From: a virus
IMG/VR virus record: IMGVR_UViG_3300009008_000005
Coordinates: 62,001-126,000 of that record
Strand: one strand, 5' to 3'
Length of the DNA: 64,000 nt
How positions within the stretch are numbered: position 1 is the first letter of the stretch; every line of letters starts with the position of its first letter. A program made the translations under genes and the position numbers. The notes beneath the pieces were generated by a model. It was not told the origin of the DNA, searched no databases, and was given only the letters and a program-made list of their open reading frames with translations. Shown here one piece after another: positions 4,472 to 62,018 of the stretch.

Positions 4472-4488
4472 GGAATAAGAAGATTGGA
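4472..4488 (+). promoter_or_regulatory. Phage promoter
   Basis: GGAATAAGAAGATTGGA upstream of the 4517 gene, directly downstream of operator copy 2. Confidence 0.65.
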
Positions 4489-4516: not shown

Positions 4517-4939
4517 ATGCCTGAAGCTGTGTTCACCTACACCTGGAATGAAGACCTGCAGGTCTCCCTGGAATCCGTCACCGGGGTGGAACTCGAAGTC
4601 CCCCGTGCGCCGGATACCTCTGCGGAGGGCGTCGAGGTCCGCATCACGGCCTCCATCGCCACCATCAAGCTAGGCTGCGAGCCGATCCAGCACCCGAGCT
4701 TGGTGGTCGCTCGACTCAGCCGGGAGCCGATAGGCGTACCAGGGGAGGCCGGAGTGCTGATCTTCCGCCGCTCCGAGCGGGCGTGGACGATCAAGGGCTC
4801 TGCCTCGAACGGGTCCGACGTAGTCCTCTTCCTCCAGAAGATCGGCCGTCTGCCCCAGGGGGAGTTCTTCCTCCGCAAGAAGGGAGCCGTGCTGCCGACC
4901 GAGGAGCCGGTCCCGGCTGACGCCGCACCCACAATGTAG
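4517..4939 (+). CDS. Unknown protein, monocistronic cassette
   Basis: 140 residues, not recognised. Mixed alpha/beta composition with a Pro/Ala-rich acidic C-terminus. AAGGAGGG precedes ATG 4517. It has its own operator-linked promoter and ends at a strong terminator. Confidence 0.75.
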   Translation: MPEAVFTYTWNEDLQVSLESVTGVELEVPRAPDTSAEGVEVRITASIATIKLGCEPIQHPSLVVARLSREPIGVPGEAGVLIFRRSERAWTIKGSASNGSDVVLFLQKIGRLPQGEFFLRKKGAVLPTEEPVPADAAPTM

Positions 4940-9950: not shown

Positions 9951-10461
9951 GAATGAGAAGACAGAGGAGAAGGGGACGATCACCCTTCGCCCTTCTGCAG
10001 TACGCACCTGGTTGCTGATGCTCGTAGGGGTAGCTGGTGTAGGGGGTGGTAGCATCGGTGTGCAACACCTCATCCCAGCACTCACACCGGATAAAGAGGT
10101 TGCGCAGACCCAGGTGAACTCTGCTGTCGAAACCTTGATGTCGAGTGTAGTGACCGCTGCGAAAGCTGACATCGAGAAGGACATGGATGAAAACCTCAAG
10201 GAACTGAAGAAAGACCTTAAGGAGTCCATCGCAGACAAACTGAACACCGTGTCTGTCGCCCTGAAAGCAATGGTGAAGCTGAACGAGGCCGAGATCCTAC
10301 GTGAGGCTCAGGGTGATGCTGCCCTGCGTAGAGAACTAGACGAAATGAATAAGCAAATCAGTATCTTACGTAGTGCTGTCCAATCCATCGAGGAAGAACT
10401 CGACGCTGGGATTGAAATGGCTCCGCTTGTATTTGAAGGTGAGACGTCAGGTCCCCCGTAG
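9937..10461 (+). CDS. Membrane-anchored coiled-coil protein
   Basis: 174 residues. One transmembrane segment (about 25-45, glycine-rich) then about 110 residues of charged heptads predicted coiled coil. GGAG precedes ATG 9937; ATG 9913 lacks one. Could be an i-spanin-like or inner-membrane structural protein; uncertain. Confidence 0.6.
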   Translation: MTQNKNEKTEEKGTITLRPSAVRTWLLMLVGVAGVGGGSIGVQHLIPALTPDKEVAQTQVNSAVETLMSSVVTAAKADIEKDMDENLKELKKDLKESIADKLNTVSVALKAMVKLNEAEILREAQGDAALRRELDEMNKQISILRSAVQSIEEELDAGIEMAPLVFEGETSGPP

Positions 10462-10468
10462 GTAAAAG

Positions 10469-10557
10469 AGGAGTGGGGGGGATTCGAACCCCCGGGGGAC
10501 CTCACGGCCCCCACTGCCTTTCCAAGACAGCGCAATAAGCCTCTCTGCCACCACTCC
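10469..10557 (-). tRNA. tRNA-Ser (GGA)
   Basis: Acceptor GGAGTGG/CCACTCC, loop TTGGAAA, long variable arm as expected for Ser. Confidence 0.92.
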
Positions 10558-10579
10558 GTGGGCCCCGAAGGGCCCTGAA

Positions 10580-11119
10580 TCACGTCACCTTGATGAAGGG
10601 CTCCAGGTAGTCCTTCCAAAGCTCAGGCATGGACTCATCCCAACTCAAACCTGAAGCTACGAACCCTGGTAGGTTATCCGGCTTCTGGGGTCGCCTGACG
10701 AGATGCATCTTCGCCTCTGCGAGAGAAGCACCACCCTTCTTCTGGTTGCATCCATCGCAGCACGTAACGATATTCCCCCACGCCGTAGTTCCACCGGAAC
10801 ATCGAGGAATGACGTGGTCGACTGTCATGTCCCGCAACAGGATCTTTGTCTTGCAGTACTGACATCGACCCTTGTCCCGTAACCAGATATTCTTCCTGTT
10901 TAGACGTACGCCCCTCTTGAAGAAGAGGTTAGAATGCCTGTTGAACCTAACTACGGCTGGGGTCTTGTAGGTGCGGTCACTGTATGTGCGAATGATCTTG
11001 TCCGGGTCTTCGTACTCCTCCACTACAGAGGCCCTACCGGACAGCACCATAGTGATCGAATCGAACCAACCCACACAGCGGAGTGGAACATAACTACTGG
11101 ACAAGACTAAAGTTTCCAT
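10580..11119 (-). CDS. HNH endonuclease
   Basis: 179 residues. Zinc pairs CQYC (86-89) and CC..C (120-124) flank the catalytic DHVIPRCSGG (101-110) and N116, the classical HNH layout. Probably a free-standing homing-type or restriction-like nuclease. It sits between tRNAs, with a copy of a 30-bp repeat 16 bp upstream of its start. Confidence 0.88.
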   Translation of the reverse strand: METLVLSSSYVPLRCVGWFDSITMVLSGRASVVEEYEDPDKIIRTYSDRTYKTPAVVRFNRHSNLFFKRGVRLNRKNIWLRDKGRCQYCKTKILLRDMTVDHVIPRCSGGTTAWGNIVTCCDGCNQKKGGASLAEAKMHLVRRPQKPDNLPGFVASGLSWDESMPELWKDYLEPFIKVT

Positions 11120-11134
11120 GACTACACCTCTCCT

Positions 11135-11164
11135 ACCTCCCTTAGTGTAACAGTTTTAGCCACC
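11135..11164 (+). repeat. 30-bp direct repeat, copy B
   Basis: 29/30 identical to 7783-7812. On the minus strand it forms the leader of the HNH gene. Confidence 0.8.
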
Positions 11165-11290
11165 ACGTATTTCCTGCCCTCAACCCGACGATCCGCCGTG
11201 TGACGTCCCCAGGTTACTTAGGCCCTCCCCGCCGGGAGGGTACAACCCCAGCACCAACCGGCGTACACCCGGCGGTATTAGACAGGAATT
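11165..11290 (-). ncRNA. Structured spacer downstream of tRNA-Ser
   Basis: Minus strand contains CCGCCGG/CGCCGG and a perfect CCCTCC-CGGCGG-GGAGGG hairpin with no ORF. It may terminate or process the tRNA transcript. Confidence 0.35.
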
Positions 11291-11292
11291 GG

Positions 11293-11383
11293 AGGATAGG
11301 GAGGGATTCGAACCCTCGGAGGACATCGCTGCCCTCACCGCCTTAGCAGGACGGCGCAATAAGCCAGACTCTGCCACCTATCC
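11293..11383 (-). tRNA. tRNA-Ser (GCU)
   Basis: GGATAGG/CCTATCC acceptor, loop CTGCTAA, long variable arm. Confidence 0.92.
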
Positions 11384-11386
11384 AAG

Positions 11387-11460
11387 TAGGGTGAGTGGGA
11401 TTCGAACCCACGATCCTCGGATTAAAAGTCCGATGCCTTACCAGACTTGGCCACCACCCT
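11387..11460 (-). tRNA. tRNA-Lys (UUU)
   Basis: Loop CTTTTAA between TCGGA/TCCGA; A73. Confidence 0.92.
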
Positions 11461-11464
11461 GTAG

Positions 11465-11538
11465 AGCCGGGAAGGGGAATCGAACCCCTGACCTGCGGAT
11501 TACAAAACCACTGCTACTACCAACTGAGCTACCCCGGC
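11465..11538 (-). tRNA. tRNA-Thr (UGU)
   Basis: Loop TTTGTAA; acceptor GCCGGGG/TCCCGGC. One mismatch at the anticodon stem base. Confidence 0.85.
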
Positions 11539-11542
11539 ATGG

Positions 11543-11631
11543 AGGAGCAGGAGGGATTCGAACCCCCGGAAGATGCATGCACCTTCGGTGGCTTTCAAGG
11601 CCACTGCGATCAACCGCTCTGCCACTGCTCC
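11543..11631 (-). tRNA. tRNA-Ser (UGA)
   Basis: Loop CTTGAAA, long variable arm, acceptor GGAGCAG/CTGCTCC. Confidence 0.92.
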
Positions 11632-11683
11632 GTAAGGTTCTCCCAGTAAGGTTCTACTATATAGGAAGAACCGGAACCATCAG

Positions 11684-11756
11684 AGCCCGAGGCGGGATTC
11701 GAACCCGCAACCCCCTGCTTACGACACAGGTGCACAGCCAGTTGTGCTTCTCGGGC
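11684..11756 (-). tRNA. tRNA-Thr (CGU)
   Basis: Loop GTCGTAA, stem CCTGT/GCAGG, acceptor GCCCGAG/CTCGGGC. Confidence 0.85.
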
Positions 11757-11757
11757 A

Positions 11758-11832
11758 TGGGCCCTCAGGGATTCGAACCCTGGATCGACCGGTTATGAGC
11801 CGGTGGCTTTAACCAGACTAAGCTAAAGGCCC
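11758..11832 (-). tRNA. tRNA with CAU anticodon (elongator Met or Ile2)
   Basis: Loop CTCATAA; acceptor GGGCCTT/AGGGCCC. The separate gene at 15585 is the initiator, so this is elongator Met or a lysidine-modified Ile; sequence alone does not decide. Confidence 0.88.
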
Positions 11833-11833
11833 T

Positions 11834-12562
11834 CTAGACTTCGAGTACCATATCATTCCTGAATCGCTCGTCAATGCGGTGCCTGTACCCTCTTGGGTTG
11901 CAGACCACCAGAGTGTCGTGAATCTCGTACTCTGCGTGGTCGTGCATGTGTCCATGGACCCAGACGTTCGGCTTCAACTCCCGGATCACGCCCTCCAGAG
12001 GTGTGAAATAGAAGGCGTTCATCTCGGAGAACTTGTACCAGGGCATGACGCTCTGCTCTGAAGGGGCGTGGTGTGTGATTACCACGTCACCCTGAGAGAC
12101 ATTCTGCTTCAGGAACTCGACCGCCTCCTTGTTCGCATCGAAGACCCAGGATGCGAAGCGCTCGATGAGGTGGAAGTCGGACATCCCCCGCTGGTTCACT
12201 GGTAGCTCTGCCTGATACGAGGGTGGGAACCATAAGGTCGTCCCGTGGAAAGTTGTACCTTCTAGAGTCACACTGGAATTCTGGAGCGGGTATATCTGGT
12301 CTCCCCACTTGTTCTTTAGCCACTCGAACTTCTCCGCTACAGCCTCCCTGGATGCATGATAGTGCTCGTGATTCCCGGCTACGAGTATGAGGCGATCCCA
12401 CTTCTTCAGGATCTCACGTATAGGGGCTCCCAGCTGGTAGCAGATGCTTAGGTCCCCGGCTGAGATGAGTGTAGGTGCGACCGGCACAATCTCGTTGAAC
12501 GCCTCCCTGCCGGGGGATTTGTAGAACTCGATATGGAGGTCGGATACAGGTTGTACTAACAT
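11834..12562 (-). CDS. Calcineurin-like metallophosphoesterase
   Basis: 242 residues with the full motif series: SDLH (7-10), GDL, GNHEH (about 62), THHAPS and GHMHDH. Two-metal phosphoesterase; the substrate cannot be told (nucleotide, RNA 2',3'-cyclic phosphate and protein phosphate are all possible). AAGGAGG precedes the ATG. It lies between tRNA genes in the same orientation, so probably co-transcribed. Confidence 0.85.
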   Translation of the reverse strand: MLVQPVSDLHIEFYKSPGREAFNEIVPVAPTLISAGDLSICYQLGAPIREILKKWDRLILVAGNHEHYHASREAVAEKFEWLKNKWGDQIYPLQNSSVTLEGTTFHGTTLWFPPSYQAELPVNQRGMSDFHLIERFASWVFDANKEAVEFLKQNVSQGDVVITHHAPSEQSVMPWYKFSEMNAFYFTPLEGVIRELKPNVWVHGHMHDHAEYEIHDTLVVCNPRGYRHRIDERFRNDMVLEV

Positions 12563-12575
12563 GTGGCCTCCTTAG

Positions 12576-12648
12576 TAGGGTGGAGAGGACTCGAACCTCC
12601 AATCGCCGGATTAAGAGTCCGGTGCTGTTCCAGTTTAGCTACCACCCC
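12576..12648 (-). tRNA. tRNA-Lys (CUU)
   Basis: Loop CTCTTAA between CCGGA/TCCGG; A73. Confidence 0.92.
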
Positions 12649-12652
12649 ATGG

Positions 12653-12741
12653 AGGAGAGAAGGGGATTCGAACCCCTGGAGGACATCTCTGCCCTCAATG
12701 CCTTTCGAAGACACCGCAATAAACCACTCTGCCATCTCTCC
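12653..12741 (-). tRNA. tRNA-Ser (CGA)
   Basis: Loop TTCGAAA, long variable arm, acceptor GGAGAGA/TCTCTCC. Confidence 0.9.
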
Positions 12742-12747
12742 ACTAGC

Positions 12748-12818
12748 AGGGGTACAGGGATTCGAACCCCGGACATCCGGCTCCAAAGGCCAGCGTTCTA
12801 CCAGCTGAACTATACCCC
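12748..12818 (-). tRNA. tRNA-Gln (UUG)
   Basis: Loop CTTTGGA between CTGGC/GCCGG. Confidence 0.9.
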
Positions 12819-12833
12819 TATTTCGCCGAAATA
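12819..12833. promoter_or_regulatory. Palindromic operator, copy 3
   Basis: TATTTCGCCGAAATA exactly abutting the tRNA-Gln(UUG) 5' end and five bases before tRNA-Gln(CUG). The only copy inside the tRNA array. Confidence 0.7.
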
Positions 12834-12837
12834 CTAG

Positions 12838-12908
12838 CTAGGGCGGTAGGACTCGAACCTACGATCCCGGGACCAGAACCCGGAGCCTTACCACTTGGCT
12901 ACGCCCCA
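12838..12908 (-). tRNA. tRNA-Gln (CUG)
   Basis: Loop TTCTGGT between CCGGG/CCCGG; G73. Confidence 0.9.
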
Positions 12909-12914
12909 ATACAG

Positions 12915-12985
12915 AGCGGGTAGACGGACTCGAACCGACGTAACCAGCTTGGAAGGCTGGTGTCCTACCATTGGACGATACCCGC
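12915..12985 (-). tRNA. tRNA-Gly (UCC)
   Basis: Loop CTTCCAA between CCAGC/GCTGG; U73. Confidence 0.92.
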
Positions 12986-12989
12986 ATAG

Positions 12990-13061
12990 TGACCCTGGGG
13001 GGAATCGAACCCCTCGTTACCGGGTTGAAAACCCGGCTTCCTACCATTGGAAGACAGGGCC
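12990..13061 (-). tRNA. tRNA-Glu (UUC)
   Basis: Loop TTTTCAA between CCGGG/CCCGG. Confidence 0.92.
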
Positions 13062-13063
13062 GG

Positions 13064-13136
13064 AGAGCACGGTGGGCTACGATCCCACGATCTTCGGTTT
13101 TGCAGACCGACGTCTTACCAACTCGACCACGTGCTC
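13064..13136 (-). tRNA. tRNA-Cys (GCA)
   Basis: Loop CTGCAAA between TCGGT/ACCGA; U73, a Cys identity base. Confidence 0.92.
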
Positions 13137-13140
13137 GCAG

Positions 13141-13212
13141 AGCCAGGACCGGGACTCGAACCCGGACTACCGCCATACCACAGCGGGGTACTACCATTGA
13201 TACGATCCCGGC
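13141..13212 (-). tRNA. tRNA-Thr (GGU)
   Basis: Position counting gives loop GTGGTAT, anticodon GGT. Acceptor GCCGGGA/TCCTGGC. G32 is unusual. Confidence 0.8.
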
Positions 13213-13216
13213 GTAG

Positions 13217-13288
13217 AGCGGATGATGGGATTCGAACCCACAACGTCCTGCATGGCAAGCAGGGACTCTACCATTGAGCTACATCCGC
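13217..13288 (-). tRNA. tRNA-Gly (GCC)
   Basis: Loop TTGCCAT between CCTGC/GCAGG. Its first ten bases also hold the end and TAG stop of the upstream CDS. Confidence 0.92.
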
Positions 13289-13623
13289 TTATTCCACTCA
13301 TCCTCGAAGAAGTCTTCCACCCAGTCGTGGTAGTCCAACTTAGCCTCATCTTGCATGGTTTCATAGTAGGCTTCGGATCCTCTGCAGTAGGTGGAAGGAG
13401 TCTTCCTCTTTACTGACAGCCACTGCCATGCACCACAGTTCTGACACTGAGCTTCCTCTACATCCTTGGAGCCGATTACCTTCCCCTCCGAATTGTATTC
13501 GTACTTAGTGCCCCACTGATACTGTGGGAGATCCCCAGCCCCACAAAGGAGGCAGTTGTAATGGATTCCACGGGCCTCTACGGTTCCACCATGAACCGCC
13601 CAGCCGCCACCTTTAGTAGGCAT
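13279..13623 (-). CDS. Zinc-ribbon protein overlapping a tRNA
   Basis: 114 residues with CLLC (about 24-27) and CQNC (about 60-63), a four-cysteine zinc site; acidic, tryptophan-containing C-terminus. AAGGGGGA precedes ATG 13623. The stop TAG is inside the D-arm start of tRNA-Gly(GCC). Confidence 0.7.
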   Translation of the reverse strand: MPTKGGGWAVHGGTVEARGIHYNCLLCGAGDLPQYQWGTKYEYNSEGKVIGSKDVEEAQCQNCGAWQWLSVKRKTPSTYCRGSEAYYETMQDEAKLDYHDWVEDFFEDEWNKRM

Positions 13624-13660
13624 TAGGTCCCCCTTTAGAATACAGTAGCATATAGTATGG

Positions 13661-13732
13661 TGGGGGTGGAGGGATTCGAACCCCCGTGTGTCGGCGTGTA
13701 AAACCGATGTCTTCCCACTTGACGACACCCCC
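13661..13732 (-). tRNA. tRNA-Val (UAC)
   Basis: Loop TTTACAC between TCGGT/GCCGA; acceptor GGGGGTG/CACCCCC. Confidence 0.9.
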
Positions 13733-13736
13733 ATAG

Positions 13737-13809
13737 TGGACCCTACCGGACTCGAACCGGTCACCTCCGCCGTGCAAAAGCGGCATTCTCCCAGATGAAC
13801 TAAGGGCCC
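13737..13809 (-). tRNA. tRNA-Ala (UGC)
   Basis: Loop TTTGCAC between CCGCT/GGCGG. The usual G3-U70 Ala pair is present (acceptor GGGCCCT/AGGGTCC). Confidence 0.9.
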
Positions 13810-13812
13810 ATA

Positions 13813-14100
13813 TTATTTTCTCTTCCTGCGCCGAGCCTCCCGCATCCTATCAGCGTTCGCCCTACGGCAGTCCTGGCATCTGCACCCATCACGACTGTAC
13901 CGACCATACTCGCCGTGAGCGTACTCTTTCTTCTTACGAGTAGTCCACCCAGCCAAAGCAGCATGTGACTCAGAACAGAAAAACCTCTCCTGGTCACGGG
14001 GACCGACATCGCAAAGGAGATGCAGAAAAAGGGTAACAAGGTTCGGAAGGGGGCAAGAAAGGGGGCAAGAGCGGAATCCTTTGTCAATACTCGTCCGCAT
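13813..14100 (-). CDS. Small basic Cys/His protein
   Basis: 95 codons. The C-terminal 60 residues (HGEYGRYSRDGCRCQDCRR) match a pattern common in small phage proteins; the N-terminal 30 residues look less protein-like and the ATG lacks a clear ribosome site, so the real start may be further in. Between tRNA-Arg and tRNA-Ala. Confidence 0.5.
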   Translation of the reverse strand: MRTSIDKGFRSCPLSCPLPNLVTLFLHLLCDVGPRDQERFFCSESHAALAGWTTRKKKEYAHGEYGRYSRDGCRCQDCRRANADRMREARRRKRK

Positions 14101-14117
14101 CCATTTGTGCTACATAG

Positions 14118-14193
14118 AGGAAGTGGTGGGATTTGAACCCACGACCTCAGGCTTCGGAGACCTGTGCTCTATTCCAAGCTGAGCTACACTTCC
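14118..14193 (-). tRNA. tRNA-Arg (CCG)
   Basis: Loop CTCCGAA between CAGGT/GCCTG. Confidence 0.9.
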
Positions 14194-14198
14194 AATGG

Positions 14199-14274
14199 TA
14201 GGAGTGGAGGGATTCGAACCCCCGACACCCGGCTCCGTAGACCGGTGCTCTGGTCCAGACTGAGCTACACTCCT
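14199..14274 (-). tRNA. tRNA-Arg (ACG)
   Basis: Loop CTACGGA between CCGGT/GCCGG; A34 would need deamination to inosine. Confidence 0.9.
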
Positions 14275-14275
14275 A

Positions 14276-14313
14276 TGCGGCGGGGTGCCTATCCAGACTA
14301 GACTACACCCTCG
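14276..14313 (-). pseudogene. 5' half of a tRNA
   Basis: GAGGGTGTAGTCTAGTCTGG is an acceptor 5' strand plus D-arm; anticodon and T arms are absent. Left between two tRNAs, probably by deletion or recombination. Confidence 0.6.
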
Positions 14314-14316
14314 TGG

Positions 14317-14391
14317 TCGGAATGGCCGGATTCGAACCCACGATTTCCGCCTTGAGAGGGCGGCGTCCTAAGCCAGCTAGACTACAGGGCC
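14317..14391 (-). tRNA. tRNA-Glu (CUC), 3' acceptor degenerate
   Basis: Loop CTCTCAA between CCGCC/GGCGG and a good D-arm, but the 3' acceptor strand (CATTCCG) fails at four positions against GGCCCTG and the T-stem has a mismatch. Possibly non-functional. Confidence 0.6.
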
Positions 14392-14395
14392 ATAG

Positions 14396-14468
14396 CACCC
14401 CCGACAGGACTCGAACCTGCATATCCCTGATTAGAAGTCAGGTGCCTGTCCAGTTAGACTACGGGGGT
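14396..14468 (-). tRNA. tRNA-Arg (UCU)
   Basis: Loop CTTCTAA between CCTGA/TCAGG; G73. Confidence 0.92.
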
Positions 14469-14472
14469 ATGG

Positions 14473-14562
14473 TGGGGAGAGAGGGATTCGAACCCCCAAT
14501 GTTCACTCATTAGAGAACGGATTTACAGTCCGTCGCAGAACCTCCATCTCTGCAGTCTCCCC
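14473..14562 (-). tRNA. tRNA-Tyr (GUA)
   Basis: Loop CTGTAAA between ACGGA/TCCGT, long variable arm, A73. Confidence 0.93.
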
Positions 14563-14566
14563 TTGG

Positions 14567-14641
14567 TGCGCTAGGGAGGACTCGAACCTCCAACATCCGG
14601 CCTCTCAGACCGGCGACTCTACCAGATTGGCCTACTAGCGC
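14567..14641 (-). tRNA. tRNA-Leu (GAG), short variable loop
   Basis: Loop CTGAGAG between CCGGT/GCCGG; A73. Variable loop is only five bases (ATGTT), unlike bacterial class II tRNA-Leu. Confidence 0.85.
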
Positions 14642-14712
14642 ATGTGACATGGTGGTGGTGCTGGAGAACCCAGCTCCGGGAAATCCGAGGAAAAGGCCAC
14701 CACCATGTCGAG

Positions 14713-14788
14713 TCCCCACGGAGGGATTCGAACCCCCAACATCTGGTTCCTGAAACCAGCGACTCTACCTAAGTTGGCCCACGTGGGG
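14713..14788 (-). tRNA. tRNA-Leu (CAG), short variable loop
   Basis: Loop TTCAGGA between CTGGT/ACCAG; A73; variable ATGTT. Confidence 0.85.
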
Positions 14789-14797
14789 AAAGAGCAG

Positions 14798-14871
14798 TAC
14801 CCGCAGTGGGACTCGAACCCACAACCTCTGGCTCCTAAAGCCAGCGCCTCTACCAGTTGGGCTACACGGGC
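14798..14871 (-). tRNA. tRNA-Leu (UAG), short variable loop
   Basis: Loop TTTAGGA between CTGGC/GCCAG; A73; variable AGGTT. Confidence 0.85.
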
Positions 14872-14875
14872 GTAG

Positions 14876-14949
14876 TACCTAGGGTGGGACTCGAACCCAC
14901 AACTTCCGGATTTTAAATCCGGCACCTCTACCAGTTGGGCTACCCAGGC
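14876..14949 (-). tRNA. tRNA-Leu (UAA), short variable loop
   Basis: Loop TTTAAAA between CCGGA/TCCGG; A73; five-base variable loop. Confidence 0.85.
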
Positions 14950-14953
14950 CTAG

Positions 14954-15028
14954 TAGCCACGGCGGGATTCGAACCCGCAACCTCTGGATTTTGAATCCAG
15001 CGCCTCTGCCGGATTGGGCTACGTGGCC
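14954..15028 (-). tRNA. tRNA-Leu (CAA), short variable loop
   Basis: Loop TTCAAAA between CTGGA/TCCAG; A73; five-base variable loop. Confidence 0.85.
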
Positions 15029-15032
15029 ATGG

Positions 15033-15106
15033 CAGGTGGACCGAGACTCGAACTCGGAATCGCCGGATTTGGAGTCCGGTGCCTTATCCAATTTGGCCAT
15101 CCACCC
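15033..15106 (-). tRNA. tRNA-Trp (CCA)
   Basis: Loop CTCCAAA between CCGGA/TCCGG; G73. Confidence 0.92.
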
Positions 15107-15108
15107 TC

Positions 15109-15132
15109 ATTCCATATCCTAGAATATGGAAT
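15109..15132 (-). other. Perfect stem-loop between tRNAs
   Basis: ATTCCATAT / ATATGGAAT nine-base-pair stem with a six-base loop. Possible processing signal or terminator. Confidence 0.5.
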
Positions 15133-15136
15133 TTCG

Positions 15137-15210
15137 CACCCCCGGCAGGATTCGAACCTGCGACTTACGGATTAGGAATCCGTCGCCCTATCCAGCTGGG
15201 CCACGGGGGT
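15137..15210 (-). tRNA. tRNA-Arg (CCU)
   Basis: Loop TTCCTAA between ACGGA/TCCGT; G73. Confidence 0.92.
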
Positions 15211-15246
15211 ATAGGGAACCTGATTGTCAAAGACCGACTTTCACAG

Positions 15247-15319
15247 CGGGCAAGGTGGGGCTCGAACCCACATACTTCCGGTTAACAGCCGGATGCTGAG
15301 CCTGTTCAGCTACTCACCC
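15247..15319 (-). tRNA. tRNA-Asn (GUU)
   Basis: Loop CTGTTAA between TCCGG/CCGGA; G73. Confidence 0.92.
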
Positions 15320-15323
15320 AAAG

Positions 15324-15404
15324 GGAAGTGGTCCGGCTTTGAACCGGAATCCCCGAGCTACCTTTCGGTGTTCGCCCGGTGCTCTAACCTTGAGCTACCA
15401 CTCC
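15324..15404 (-). ncRNA. tRNA-like RNA with hairpin in place of anticodon loop
   Basis: Acceptor GGAGTGG/CCACTTC, D-arm GCTC..GAGC and T-arm TCCGG/CCGGA are good, but between CCGGG and CTCGG lies a 17-base segment containing ACC-GAAA-GGT. No seven-base loop, U33 or readable anticodon. Confidence 0.7.
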
Positions 15405-15420
15405 ACATCCACTTCCCGGG

Positions 15421-15492
15421 GTGTGCGACGGGGATCGAACCCGCACCCTCCGGCACCACAAACCGGCGCTCTCCCACTTGAGCTTCGCACAC
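15421..15492 (-). tRNA. tRNA-His (GUG)
   Basis: Loop TTGTGGT between CCGGT/GCCGG, with the G-1:C73 pair specific to tRNA-His. Confidence 0.93.
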
Positions 15493-15494
15493 AG

Positions 15495-15565
15495 CGAGGA
15501 TGACGGGACTCGAACCCGCTTTATCGGATAGACAGTCCGATGCCTTTCCTAATGGCTACATCCCC
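15495..15565 (-). tRNA. tRNA-Asp (GUC)
   Basis: Loop CTGTCTA between TCGGA/TCCGA; G73. Confidence 0.92.
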
Positions 15566-15584
15566 AGAGGTCCTCAAAGAACAG

Positions 15585-15656
15585 TAGCGGGACCGGGATT
15601 TGAACCCGGATGTCCTGGGTTATGGGCCCAGTGAGTTACCAATACTCTACCCCGCT
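15585..15656 (-). tRNA. Initiator tRNA-fMet (CAU)
   Basis: Loop CCCATAA flanked by GGG/CCC, the three G:C pairs of initiators, and TTCAAAT T-loop. The acceptor starts with A1:U72 rather than the usual C1xA72 mismatch. Confidence 0.85.
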
Positions 15657-15659
15657 ATA

Positions 15660-15752
15660 GACAGCACTGACTTACTTCTCCAGTCAGGTGAGGCCAGACG
15701 TTCGGCCAGTACTGTCAGGCTCCAGTACGTGCCCATGGGAGGCGTACTGGAA
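15660..15752 (-). ncRNA. Three-hairpin spacer RNA in tRNA array
   Basis: No ORF. Contains CCAGTACG/CGTACTGG, GGCC-flanked and CTGACT/AGTCAG stems in tandem. It would be part of the tRNA transcript. Confidence 0.45.
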
Positions 15753-15755
15753 CAG

Positions 15756-15829
15756 TGGACCCAGGCGGAATTGAACCGCCGACACCTCGGTCTTCAGCCG
15801 AGTGCTCTACCGAACTGAGCTACAGGTCC
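15756..15829 (-). tRNA. tRNA-Phe (GAA)
   Basis: Loop CTGAAGA between CTCGG/CCGAG; A73. Confidence 0.92.
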
Positions 15830-15830
15830 A

Positions 15831-16079
15831 TTACTTACGCATCAACTTCGGCTGCTCCTTCGGATCGAAGGACATCTTTCCGTCCTTATCGAAGCTCCAG
15901 ACATCCGATACCTCACGCATCTCCGGAAAGATCACATCTTCGTCCACCTCATAGGTAAGTTCTCCTAGTGCCTCCTTAACCTTGGAGCGAAGTTTTCTAT
16001 TTGCGAACCTCTTACCCTGCTTATCCGACGCCGCCTTGGTGATGCCGGTGATCGCTGTTTTCTGATAGGACCTACTCAT
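15831..16079 (-). CDS. Small basic unknown protein
   Basis: 82 residues. GGAGGTCCAT precedes ATG 16079. Basic N-terminal half, acidic middle; not recognised. Squeezed between tRNA-Ile and tRNA-Phe, so made from the tRNA transcript. Confidence 0.65.
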   Translation of the reverse strand: MSRSYQKTAITGITKAASDKQGKRFANRKLRSKVKEALGELTYEVDEDVIFPEMREVSDVWSFDKDGKMSFDPKEQPKLMRK

Positions 16080-16093
16080 ATGGACCTCCGAAG

Positions 16094-16167
16094 TTCCTGC
16101 GAGTGGATTTGAACCACTGACCTCTCGGTTATCAGCCAAGGGCTCTACCGGACTGAGCTACGCAGGA
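16094..16167 (-). tRNA. tRNA-Ile (GAU)
   Basis: Loop CTGATAA between CTTGG/CCGAG; acceptor TCCTGCG/CGCAGGA. Promoter-proximal gene of the array. Confidence 0.92.
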
Positions 16168-16224: not shown

Positions 16225-16290
16225 AACCGTTTACCGGCCTCGGGCCACGATCGCAAATAGCGATCATGAGACCTCCCGGTAAATGACATA
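16225..16290 (-). ncRNA. Structured leader of the tRNA array
   Basis: TTTACCGG/CCGGTAAA closes a domain containing a GATCGC/GCGATC hairpin and GGCC repeats. Between the minus-strand promoter and tRNA-Ile. No ORF in 16170-16350. Confidence 0.45.
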
Positions 16291-16351
16291 TGTGTTCTCG
16301 CCAGCAAGCTGACCTCCTACGGCTACGCTAATCGTACGGCGTAGATATTCC

Positions 16352-16376
16352 GTGTCAACAAGAATCTTATACCAGG
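16352..16376 (-). promoter_or_regulatory. Promoter of the tRNA array
   Basis: CCTGGTATAAGATTCTTG matches the phage promoter core and faces the tRNA genes. Confidence 0.65.
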
Positions 16377-16418
16377 AACAAAAAAATTTTAGACCTTGGG
16401 AAAACCTGAGCCCTACAC

Positions 16419-16437
16419 GGCATAAGAGTAGTGTAAG
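16419..16437 (+). promoter_or_regulatory. Phage promoter for structured RNA
   Basis: GGCATAAGAGTAGTGTAAG, divergent from the tRNA promoter and followed by no ORF. Confidence 0.7.
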
Positions 16438-16592
16438 GTCAGGCCTCTCCGCCGAGAATGTGCTGTCTTATGCAGTACCTAAACCACCCCGGGGAAGCAC
16501 TAAACCCAGGAGTCGTAGGTGCATACTAGGCAGGCGGAGAGGCGAGGAAGGCCTGAAAAGGGGAGGGGACCGCAATCCACTCCTCTTTTACC
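16438..16592 (+). ncRNA. Novel structured RNA with own promoter and terminator
   Basis: A 14-bp helix pairs 16440-16453 with 16533-16539 plus 16549-16555, leaving a nine-base bulge at 16540-16548. Inside, TATGCA+CCTA (16469-16481) pairs with TAGGTGCATA (16516-16525). GTGCT (16460) and AGCAC (16496) can also pair. A terminator follows. No ORF. Confidence 0.75.
16556..16592. terminator. Bidirectional terminator
   Basis: AAAAGGGGAGGGG pairs with CCACTCCTCTTTT (one wobble, one mismatch). A and T tracts on both sides let it serve the plus-strand RNA and the minus-strand tail genes. Confidence 0.75.
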
Positions 16593-16726
16593 TAGAGACG
16601 AGTGCTGCACTTCCCGCAGAACTTGTTAGCCGAGCTAGACTTATGTCCACAGGATGGGCACGTGGGCAGACCCAGTAGTCTCGAACGTGAGCTTCCTTCG
16701 TGTGGTGAACGGGTACGCAGAGGCAC
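16592..16726 (-). CDS. Zinc-ribbon microprotein or frameshifted tail-spike extension
   Basis: The frame contains CPSCGH...KFCGKCSTRL, a textbook four-cysteine zinc ribbon, ending at a TAG. GTG 16726 is the only start and has a weak ribosome site. It overlaps the end of the tail-spike gene in the +1 frame, so it may be an alternative C-terminus. Confidence 0.5.
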   Translation of the reverse strand: MPLRTRSPHEGSSRSRLLGLPTCPSCGHKSSSANKFCGKCSTRL

Positions 16727-18011
16727 GATCCATCGTCGTAGCAGTTACCCAGGCAGCACCATCCCACAGCTCGCAGATGACATCAGTGTTTGTGTCCTTC
16801 ACCAACGCCGTCACGACCTCCATCTTGATCCCCGGGAAGGGAAGGGGATCTGCGATGTAAATGCAGTCACCCGCCGCAGCACCAGCGGGGAACTGGAACG
16901 TGGATCCAGTCTGACTACGGGCAGCGGCGGTCACACTGGTGAACCTGGACCCGGAAGGCTCCGACGCAGCGTACTGATGGACCTCCATGGCCCAAGCATA
17001 GGAGTCCCCCTCCCCAAAGGTCGACTCGAAGCCCATACCTGGGAGGCCAGTGGCGTTCTCCCCGATAGTACACATCGCCTCGTCACCAGCGATGGAGGTG
17101 TCCATGAAGGACATGTGTACATCGCTTGAAGCATTCAGGGTCAGCTTCGACCGGTCCAAGTCACCACCGGAGATCAGTACGGTATCCCCAGCAGCGGTCA
17201 CCACATGGTTCGTGGATGACCCATCAATCCGGAATCCGATGAGCGCTACCTCAGCCCCATTGACAGTCTGAAGCCCTGTAGTCACGAATCCCGTAGATAC
17301 CGCACTACCATGGATGACACCTCCGTCATTGAAGATGCCTATACCCGCTCCCTGACTACGGAGAATGGCGCTGAAGATATGAACAGTACCGCCTCCGTCC
17401 ACCCAGAGCCCACGGGTGAAGGTGGTGTTTGCGTTCGTATGCACGTTTGTGATGTTGAGGGAGCCGGAGTCGATCTTGATAAGATTCGTCAGAGTAGGAG
17501 ACCCAGTAAACATGAAGTCAGATATCTCCATGATACCGGAAGAGTCGATCTGGATCCCTGTCGTCCCCGTACCGCCTAGTACATTGATCTGCCTACCGAT
17601 GATGCTGCCTGCGTTCGACGAGCACAGGAATCCGATGTCCCCGTTCGTAGAGAAGCAGTCATGAAGCTCAATGTCGTACTTCCCTGCAGGGATGTAGAAG
17701 GAGGCCGTACCCGGATCAGACTGAGCTGCCCACTTCACCCTGAGGCCGATGACCTCACAGTCCTTCCCGATGGTGATCGCATGGGACGATGCATCATTCG
17801 GTACAATCCTGGTAACCTCGTGCCGACCAGGGGCGAAGAGGGTCACGTAGTCAGGGACAACAATTGGGTCCTCAATGTAAGTACCTGGGTAGACTTCGAT
17901 GAGCATCCGATTGTTGGTGTTCACAACCAGAGCTGCTGCGTCGCACGCATCCTTCACGGAGGTGTAGTCACCACCAGCGGTGGCTACCGTATACACCTGG
18001 GCGTACGACAC
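16641..18011 (-). CDS. Tail spike/fibre, parallel beta-helix
   Basis: 456 residues. Repeated short strands with GG/SGG turns and the opening TVATAGGDYTSVKDACDAA are typical of pectate-lyase-fold phage spikes that bind or cut surface glycans. The GTG start is unconvincing: the frame stays open and protein-like back to about 18095 (LLGDAEGKVFTADG), suggesting fusion with the upstream frame. Confidence 0.8.
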   Translation of the reverse strand: MSYAQVYTVATAGGDYTSVKDACDAAALVVNTNNRMLIEVYPGTYIEDPIVVPDYVTLFAPGRHEVTRIVPNDASSHAITIGKDCEVIGLRVKWAAQSDPGTASFYIPAGKYDIELHDCFSTNGDIGFLCSSNAGSIIGRQINVLGGTGTTGIQIDSSGIMEISDFMFTGSPTLTNLIKIDSGSLNITNVHTNANTTFTRGLWVDGGGTVHIFSAILRSQGAGIGIFNDGGVIHGSAVSTGFVTTGLQTVNGAEVALIGFRIDGSSTNHVVTAAGDTVLISGGDLDRSKLTLNASSDVHMSFMDTSIAGDEAMCTIGENATGLPGMGFESTFGEGDSYAWAMEVHQYAASEPSGSRFTSVTAAARSQTGSTFQFPAGAAAGDCIYIADPLPFPGIKMEVVTALVKDTNTDVICELWDGAAWVTATTMDRASAYPFTTRRKLTFETTGSAHVPILWT

Positions 18012-52271: not shown

Positions 52272-52290
52272 CAGCATAAGAATAGCGAAA
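52272..52290 (+). promoter_or_regulatory. Phage promoter with no gene
   Basis: CAGCATAAGAATAGCGAAAC; a terminator follows within 35 bases. Confidence 0.6.
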
Positions 52291-59831: not shown

Positions 59832-60257
59832 ATGTCTGACGGCGTCATAGCTGTATCCATTGAAATCCTAACGAAGGAGGGGGTGGAGAAATTCAAGAGG
59901 TGGCTGACCATCCGACTGGGCCTCATGCTCATGAATGGTGACATCAACACCTTCTCGGAAACCACCTCCTTCCTCTACCCTAGGAAGGAGAAACTGGTCA
60001 CGGAACCGGAAGAGTACATCACGGAGCTGCGCCTTATCCGGATGACGGACGATGTGCAGTCCTTCGAAATAAACTACTTCGCACGGCCCAAGGGGATCCG
60101 ACTGTTCGAATCCAAGTGGTGGTTCAACATCCTGACCAACAAGGCGTTCCTGGTCATGAACGGGCACCGGAGTAGCAACCACCTCTTCGCCAATGCGGAC
60201 CTCAAACCCTTCGGCGATAAGGTCTATGTACAAGGTCAACTGGAGGCACAAGCATGA
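59832..60257 (+). CDS. Tandem paralogue C2
   Basis: 141 residues with FNILTNKAFLVMNG and LFANADLKPFGDKVYV, aligned with its neighbours. Confidence 0.65.
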   Translation: MSDGVIAVSIEILTKEGVEKFKRWLTIRLGLMLMNGDINTFSETTSFLYPRKEKLVTEPEEYITELRLIRMTDDVQSFEINYFARPKGIRLFESKWWFNILTNKAFLVMNGHRSSNHLFANADLKPFGDKVYVQGQLEAQA

Positions 60258-60727
60258 AAGACGTGAATCTCGAATATAGAATGCTCGTTCCGGAGACCCG
60301 GAAGACATTCCGGCGTTGGATCGCCGCACATCTGGGATCAGCCATCGTGGCTGGCGTCATGAGGACTCCGAAAGGGAGGTCCGCCCCGATCATTGACGTC
60401 ACGATCGGGGACTACAGCACGTACATCGAGCACCTCAAGGCGTCGAACGACAACGGGCTGGAGAAGATCTCCCTCTCCTTGCTGCACAAGACGGATGAGG
60501 TGAAGGCCGGGAGGCAGTCCCACTGGGATACCCTCTGCGACTGGATGATCCACCTCGGCGAGAAGGAGTGTTACGTCGTGTTCGAGGGCGACGAAACCTG
60601 CAACGCCAACTACCTCTTCACGAACGACGACCTCTCAGACCTCGCAGACGAGGTGTGGTCCGGTGGGGAGTGCATCACGTTCGGCATCGAGACCACCAAG
60701 GAAATCGATGCGGAGACCGTGGCATGA
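60254..60727 (+). CDS. Tandem paralogue C3
   Basis: 157 residues with WMIHLGEKECYVVFEG and LFTNDDLSDLADEVW. Confidence 0.65.
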   Translation: MKDVNLEYRMLVPETRKTFRRWIAAHLGSAIVAGVMRTPKGRSAPIIDVTIGDYSTYIEHLKASNDNGLEKISLSLLHKTDEVKAGRQSHWDTLCDWMIHLGEKECYVVFEGDETCNANYLFTNDDLSDLADEVWSGGECITFGIETTKEIDAETVA

Positions 60728-61131
60728 GCGCCCGGGTCGGGTTCAAGATCAAGAGCCGAGCTGCGGACTTCGGGGACTTCCTCATGAAGGTCATCGGCCA
60801 GTTCGTTCAGATCTGCTCCACCTGTGGAGTGGACCAGGACGGAAGTCCGCAGTTCACCTACTCCGAATCTGATGCAGATGGGATCCGGATGTTCATCCTC
60901 ACCAGGCTGGAGAAAACCCACTACGTGATGGGGCACTTCCACGTCGACAAGCTTTCCGGGGTGCTGCACGAACACTGTACGTGGTCCTTCATCAGGAAGG
61001 ACGGCGTGTGGCACGCTCTGTTCGAGGGTAACGGGAATGGGAGGACTCCGTTCTACCTCCAGTCCCACACCGAGAAGTGGGCGGATACCTTCGGCCCGAT
61101 CGAAGAGCCTCGTGATGTCCCTCCTGAGTAA
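60724..61131 (+). CDS. Tandem paralogue C4
   Basis: 135 residues, more diverged; WSFIRKDGVWHALFEGNG aligns with the same region. ATGA overlap. Confidence 0.6.
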   Translation: MSARVGFKIKSRAADFGDFLMKVIGQFVQICSTCGVDQDGSPQFTYSESDADGIRMFILTRLEKTHYVMGHFHVDKLSGVLHEHCTWSFIRKDGVWHALFEGNGNGRTPFYLQSHTEKWADTFGPIEEPRDVPPE

Positions 61132-61357
61132 GACCGGGATCGGTAGGTCCAGCGTCTGCGAGAGGGGAAAGAGGTGCTCGGAATGCAAGGGTGATCTGGT
61201 CAAGTTCTACACCGGGGACTTCTATCTCGGAGACGAGGGGAAGCTCGTGTTCAAGATCTGCTGGAAGTGCCGCTGCGGTAGTGCCTACTACAGCGAGGAT
61301 GGAGGCAGAGACGCACCGCCCAGGCTGAAGAGAGCTGCGAAGCTCGTTCTGAAGTAA
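61115..61357 (+). CDS. Zinc-ribbon protein
   Basis: 80 residues. CSEC (about 22-25) and CWKCRCG (about 50-56). ATG 61115 lies inside the previous gene and has a weak ribosome site. Confidence 0.55.
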   Translation: MSLLSKTGIGRSSVCERGKRCSECKGDLVKFYTGDFYLGDEGKLVFKICWKCRCGSAYYSEDGGRDAPPRLKRAAKLVLK

Positions 61358-61358
61358 G

Positions 61359-61389
61359 AAAGAGGGGAGGGGCTTCCCTCCTCTCTTAC
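61359..61389. terminator. Terminator
   Basis: AAGAGGGGAGGGG CTT CCCTCCTCTCTT between convergent genes. Confidence 0.8.
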
Positions 61390-61662
61390 CTAGCCCTCTT
61401 CGATTACTTGTTCAATCTGGTTGATCACGACGTCGACTACCAGCCTGTCTATACTGGTCTGCTCGTCTGGCCCAGAATTCTTGTAGGCCTCTGAACATGA
61501 GGGGCACAGAACGGCCTTCGCCTCTCCGTATGGAGTAGCGATGTGCATCTCAAGGAACTCGACGACTGCAGGGTCCTTGTACTCTTCCCTGCAGACTGGA
61601 CACTCGTGAACACTGAGTGCCTGCCAAAGTCTCTTACTATCTTCATCGGGCATTGAAATCAC
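61390..61662 (-). CDS. Zinc-ribbon protein
   Basis: 90 residues with CPVC (about 21-24) and CPSC (about 53-56). GTG at 61662 or ATG at 61653. Acidic helical end. Confidence 0.6.
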   Translation of the reverse strand: MISMPDEDSKRLWQALSVHECPVCREEYKDPAVVEFLEMHIATPYGEAKAVLCPSCSEAYKNSGPDEQTSIDRLVVDVVINQIEQVIEEG

Positions 61663-61997
61663 AGTCCAGGTAGTTTCCCCACTCCTACAACAGGAGGCTT
61701 GATCCTGTCCAGGATATCTTTGATCTTGTCTATATGCCCCCCATCCATTATGTCGGGAAAGGCGCTAAGGAGGGAACTGTAGTCCTCATCAGCCTTCTGG
61801 AGAGCTTGCCGTGCCTTGCCTATCTCTCCATTGGACACATAGCTCATCGCATCCTCGATGTAACCGCTTATGTCGCTACTGCTGCCCTCGATCTGATCCG
61901 TGATCTCAGTAGCACAGTCCTCCAGATAATCCTCTAGGTCACTGCTGAGGTCCTCGATGAGGTCCAGCTCCGAGTCCAGGCTTATGTTATCGTCCAT
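61659..61997 (-). CDS. Acidic helical protein
   Basis: 112 residues, strongly acidic first 55 (Asp/Glu/Ser-rich), possibly a DNA mimic or partner of a basic protein; that is speculative. GGAGGTTTATT precedes the ATG. Confidence 0.6.
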   Translation of the reverse strand: MDDNISLDSELDLIEDLSSDLEDYLEDCATEITDQIEGSSSDISGYIEDAMSYVSNGEIGKARQALQKADEDYSSLLSAFPDIMDGGHIDKIKDILDRIKPPVVGVGKLPGL

Positions 61998-62018
61998 AAT
62001 AAACCTCCATAGAACATC

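Follow-up and report, generated by a model that had tools for sequence, protein, structure and literature searches.

A predicted small non-coding RNA gene with its own promoter and terminator beside the tRNA array of a large phage

A phage promoter at position 16419 of the DNA studied here is followed by a foldable stretch that ends in a hairpin, and the question raised by this locus is whether it constitutes a gene for a small RNA and, if so, of which kind. The window, i.e., the whole stretch of 64,000 nucleotides that was analysed, corresponds to bases 62001–126000 of the 180,825-bp virus record G000 (180.8-kb genome). The large terminase of this phage finds its nearest GenBank counterpart in Salmonella phage Arash (29% identity), and the best other terminases in IMG/VR are about 47% identical, besides one 16-kb fragment that is about 99.9% identical to the phage. 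By such sequence comparisons the phage is remote from everything in GenBank. Few small RNAs are known from uncultivated large phages, and where phage small RNAs have a known role, they mostly act on messages. A promoter specific to the phage that yields a folded RNA and not a protein would be well suited for transcript mapping.

The window contains 37 tRNA genes, all of them on the minus strand (ARAGORN, Rfam). The candidate RNA is found on the other strand, immediately beyond the upstream end of the tRNA array; it is divergent from the array, at a distance of about 266 nt from tRNA-Ile, in agreement with the neighbourhood given in an earlier note on this DNA. From the other side, a tail-fibre-like/zinc-ribbon gene (16592–18011, minus strand) converges on the locus, whose features are as follows.

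10468..16167, minus strand: tRNA array with 36 of the 37 tRNA genes of the window, transcribed away from the RNA (ARAGORN and Rfam).
16331..16373, minus strand: putative promoter region for the divergent tRNA array, with GGTATAAGATTCTTG at 16373 and TTGACA-16-TACGAT at 16358–16331, neither individually significant.
16401..16404, plus strand: AAAA box 14 nt 5′ of the promoter core, read from the sequence; A boxes occur at similar spacing in other copies in this phage and its relatives.
16419..16436, plus strand: phage-specific promoter core GGCATAAGAGTAGTGTAA, without an ORF behind it (21.8 against a null maximum of 17.5).
16433..16590, plus strand: predicted small non-coding RNA of about 158 nt, start approximate; no Shine-Dalgarno sequence (SD) or start codon; z of the fold −3.1 to −3.9; stability highest among the regions downstream of 22 promoters; no Rfam match.
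16440..16453, plus strand: 5′ arm of the predicted closing helix, CAGG plus CCTCTCCGCC, pairing with 16533–16542 and 16552–16555.
16469..16525, plus strand: predicted inner helix TATGCA/TGCATA plus CCTA/TAGG with the three-base bulge GTA; pair probabilities mostly 0.6–0.99, one end pair 0.3.
16533..16555, plus strand: 3′ arm of the closing helix with the nine-base bulge CGAGGAAGG, from sequence and pair probabilities.
16556..16592, plus strand: intrinsic-terminator-like hairpin AAAAGGGGAG..CTCCTCTTTT followed by ACC, likely bidirectional; most pairs have a probability of about 1.

Two further observations concern the neighbouring genes. A 13-bp inverted repeat (GACATGGTGGTGG / CCACCACCATGTC) is located within the tRNA array at 14646–14709, between two tRNA-Leu genes. 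On the minus strand, a 456-aa tail-like protein with a distant homologue in the relative G026 (25%) ends with a stop at 16641, and just past this end a zinc-ribbon motif (CPSCGHKSSSANKFCGKCSTRL, 16592–16660) is encoded in another frame; it could be the frameshifted C-terminus of the tail-like protein or a separate small gene.

Across the genome, a matrix search for the promoter yielded about 23 strong sites with the consensus GGNATAAGAANAGTGAACCC, of which nearly all are on the plus strand, and GCATAAGA occurs nine times on the plus strand of the window. On a matrix trained on nine sites, with the 16419 site left out of training, this site scores 21.8 bits, whereas the best site in four simulated genomes reached 17.5. 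Together with the AAAA box upstream, this bears out the phage promoter that the earlier note had placed here. In a refined 22-column matrix the site scores 16.0, which marks it as a somewhat weaker copy. The same consensus is found in the distant relatives G003, G012, G019, G025 and G046, often with an A box about 14 nt upstream, and the plus-strand genes under this promoter class encode an endolysin, a lipoprotein-like protein and many small proteins. A search with the single-subunit RNA polymerase model PF00940 gave no match, and the control search was likewise empty. Within the window about 20 plus-strand sites of the consensus were recorded, including those at 4472, 6030, 6354, 20422, 25417, 27437, 29654, 31044, 42208, 43222, 51918, 52340, 55650, 58069 and 63833. 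A palindrome, TATTTCGNCGAAATA, is present with close variants at 10 places (1687, 4454, 12819, 20406, 26285, 46005, 48089, 51872, 51899 and 58052), where 0.02 matches are expected by chance; several of these lie just 5′ of the phage promoter, and the palindrome is possibly an operator or a hairpin.

After every other copy of the promoter in this genome, an SD and a start codon follow at +34 to +46, barring the copy at 52273, which belongs to a tandem pair and also lacks both. Behind the 16419 copy neither was found within 90 nt, and the sole internal ATG frame of the RNA (16458–16529, 23 aa) has no SD, in accordance with the lack of an ORF described before. That the locus is nevertheless a leader or a small-peptide gene, using this 23-aa frame or, behind an attenuator, the plus-strand frame at 16662–17129, is very improbable: open frames do exist, but the shorter one is without an SD, the longer one runs antisense to the gene of the 456-aa tail-like protein, and the usual spacing of SD and start codon behind the other promoters is not kept. 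What follows the 16419 promoter instead is predicted structure. The 123 nt behind it have the most stable fold among the 22 promoters compared (−0.41 kcal/nt, z −3.06). The complementary strand folds about as stably, so that it is the promoter, together with a G-U pair in the terminal hairpin, that speaks for the plus strand.

With regard to the fold as a whole, the stretch 16419–16592 is predicted at −67.9 kcal/mol (z −2.7) and the transcript 16433–16592 at −66.8 kcal/mol, with a moderate z of −3.1 to −3.9. Its individual helices are less distinctive. The 14-pair closing helix with its nine-base bulge is present as described earlier, but its ten-pair core has an ensemble probability of about 0.43 versus about 0.57 for a competing slipped pairing, CAGGCC/GGCCTG. 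As the window has three 11-bp inverted repeats with this spacing versus 1.1 expected, the closing helix by itself is unremarkable; what counts is its coincidence with a promoter and a terminator. Likewise, the pairs of the inner ten-pair helix with a three-base bulge were recovered (16469–16474 with 16520–16525 and 16478–16481 with 16516–16519), but the stability of the inner region 16454–16532 is at the level of shuffles (z −0.3). The suggested GTGCT/AGCAC pseudoknot (16460–16464 with 16496–16500) is within chance, since 0.32 5-mer matches of this kind would be expected between the two loops anyway. In the models used here, a detailed fold and pseudoknot beyond chance are not supported. The frequency of inverted repeats and the ordinary stability of the inner helix would also fit a chance constellation, in which a strong-looking but inactive promoter happens to lie by the terminator of a gene and the inverted repeats are incidental. 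Such a coincidence appears improbable, as the promoter score exceeds those of all simulated genomes and as a promoter, the absence of an SD, the most stable of the folds and a terminator come together at this locus.

The terminal hairpin (16556–16589) consists of 10 + 3 pairs, its 3′ arm ends in TTTT, and ACC comes next. It was not listed by a generic terminator scan. It nevertheless looks like an intrinsic terminator, as the earlier note had assigned to the end of the RNA, and a comparable hairpin that is self-complementary on both strands is located at another convergent junction (61345–61390). The minus-strand zinc-ribbon frame stops at 16592 and thereby abuts the hairpin, which consequently probably terminates transcription from both sides; it may even chiefly serve the convergent minus-strand gene. 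One could go further and regard the transcript as antisense or regulatory, insulating or interfering with the convergent gene (16592–18011, minus strand), with stems that only stop transcription. Both the abutting stop codon and the comparable hairpin at another convergent junction would agree with this, but there is no overlap between the RNA and the coding part of the convergent gene, and termination does not require the closing helix, which is located far 5′ of the terminator. This alternative is distinctly unlikely. Independently, 18 nt of the terminator arm (CCACTCCTCTTTTACCTA, 16577–16594, plus strand) are identical to the 3′ end of tRNA-Ser(GGA) (10459–10476, minus strand; BLAST E about 3e-4). 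An origin of this identity as an integration site was ruled out by the inverted orientation of the copies.

The sequence attributes of a small non-coding RNA gene, i.e., its own promoter, no translated ORF and a terminator, were found by prediction, and 16433–16590 is probably such a gene, divergent from the tRNA array. Its family was sought on several levels. Rfam, which the earlier note had proposed to consult, returned nothing relevant in the window at gathering score, and at E 10 only spurious short eukaryotic matches in 16250–16700. No RNA homologue emerged from blastn against GenBank phages. A single-sequence covariance model (R1) run on about 100 related IMG/VR records gave a best E of 0.07 (L182), a 59-nt chance match, and all 139 loci from three 15-mer scans of IMG/VR proved to be chance by blastn and nhmmer; for the first 50 of them the covariance model led to the same result. 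A 19-nt match in L173 was discarded, as it resembles coding sequence. Since these searches in Rfam, GenBank phages, related records and IMG/VR, from which near-identical records may have been masked, revealed no homologue, the RNA is regarded as an orphan. It is probably outside any known family, with a detailed fold that derives from prediction. The earlier description as an unrecognised structured RNA with its own promoter and terminator is in line with the promoter score, the absent ORF, the top-ranking fold, the terminal hairpin and the empty Rfam search. A tmRNA or its remnant was considered and rejected: a tRNA-like domain and a tag frame are lacking, and ARAGORN and Rfam detected none in the genome outside bases 60001–62000 of the record. 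tRNA-rich relatives do carry a tmRNA gene (G012 at 65726+, G021, G046 and G048), whereas the present phage has 37 tRNAs and no detectable tmRNA.

While promoter copies without an ORF were sought in relatives, a structured RNA was found next to the terminase of G045, G048 and others, with 13 distinct sequences (loci L456–L477) from at least 12 related phages. It is encoded opposite in strand to the terminase, in the interval that separates the terminase start from the stop of the gene before it, and is composed of an GGTATAAG promoter, a 5′ hairpin (P1), a long rod (P2) and a 3′ hairpin (P4). P4 is usually CCGGC-GNNA-GCCGG, and the end is mostly CTTAGC.

L456–L477, minus strand of the locus: predicted terminase-adjacent RNA, starting near 4520–4715 (e.g., L472:4393–4520, L470:4387–4519, L465:4426–4602).

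The pairwise identity of the core (0.48) equals that of shuffled sequences (0.47), yet the fold z ranges from −2.4 to −7.4 in 11 of the 13 sequences (L462: −1.1; L467: +0.7), and none of seven loci tested had an Rfam match. Judged from sequences and predicted folds, this is an undescribed structured RNA whose fold is kept while its sequence is unconserved, and it is better supported than the 16433–16590 RNA. A sequence at background level with a persisting fold makes action by shape directly testable. By analogy, relatives that drive a structured RNA beside the terminase from the same promoter class would lend support to the RNA gene at the tRNA array. In G025 a second strong promoter without an ORF is followed by a foldable segment and a terminator (L257:1501–1630; G025 107739+), and in G046 a weak promoter match without an ORF shows the same arrangement (L253; G046 13881−); neither is at the terminase. 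Of the other ORF-less promoter matches in relatives, most proved to be ordinary leaders.

Could the 16433–16590 RNA be a divergent, relocated member of this three-hairpin class, its sequence free to drift? It shares the promoter class (GGCATAAGA at 16419), a long rod with a 3′ hairpin abutting it, the end at a convergent stop codon and a compatible length (about 158 versus roughly 130–230 nt), and no such RNA was found at this phage's own terminase. Moreover, as the class keeps structure without sequence, a sequence search could not have found a member. Against this stand its location by the tRNA array about 80 kb from the terminase, the missing P1, a P4 of different sequence and a T-run that is mostly missing in the class. 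Because of location, P1 and P4 it was not assigned to the class, and membership is considered rather unlikely. Broader still, the dedicated promoter class of this phage group might make RNAs that keep their shape while the sequence drifts, and the 16433–16590 RNA would then be the version found in this lineage, where it would have changed its place from the terminase to the tRNA array and would act by shape, e.g., as a protein decoy or in packaging or virion assembly; this speculative idea is unlikely as well.

For the favoured small RNA gene, the following course of events can be proposed. Phage-directed transcription machinery would initiate near 16433, at the stage when the other plus-strand genes with the same promoter are transcribed, and RNA polymerase would stop at about 16590. 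A rod-plus-hairpin RNA of about 158 nt would then accumulate and act in trans by binding a protein or ribonucleoprotein, as decoy or scaffold, and not as antisense to phage messages. Segments of the RNA that are predicted to be exposed were compared with 244 phage start regions and the 37 tRNAs, and the pairing was no better than for shuffles. An antisense action on these targets was hence rejected, and with complementarity at chance a protein-acting structured RNA is slightly favoured over an antisense one. A CsrA-type decoy was also discarded, as GGA motifs are not clearly above the expectation from base composition (hand estimate). Taken as a whole, the statement of a stand-alone phage small RNA gene with a broadly left mode of action is somewhat favoured, while a stable structured binder of a protein or ribonucleoprotein as its specific mode of action is possible but doubtful.

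Small stable RNAs without a known role also occur next to the tRNA genes of phage T4 (RNAs C and D), where they are made within the T4 tRNA transcription unit. In contrast, the 16433–16590 RNA is divergent from the array and has its own predicted promoter. GOLLD and ROOL are RNAs of phages and prophages, often near tRNA islands and of unknown function, and many GOLLD members exceed 800 nt (PMC12286853). Like them, the present RNA would be phage-encoded, structured, non-coding and beside a tRNA array. However, it measures about 158 nt from promoter to terminator, matches no Rfam covariance model and lacks an elaborate multi-pseudoknot fold; in agreement with the earlier impression of a far shorter RNA without visible resemblance, kinship is not supported. 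The phage small RNAs with assigned roles PreS, OOP, aQ, sar and 24B_1 act on phage or host messages (review PMC12197685). They are likewise short non-coding RNAs from phage genomes, but the 16433–16590 RNA shows no above-chance pairing with phage start regions and comes from an unrelated phage. From the terminase-adjacent three-hairpin RNA, which is not in Rfam, it differs in its locus and in having neither the 5′ hairpin nor the CCGGC-GNNA-GCCGG hairpin, while the two are alike in promoter class, in a rod followed by a 3′ hairpin and in an end at a convergent stop codon.
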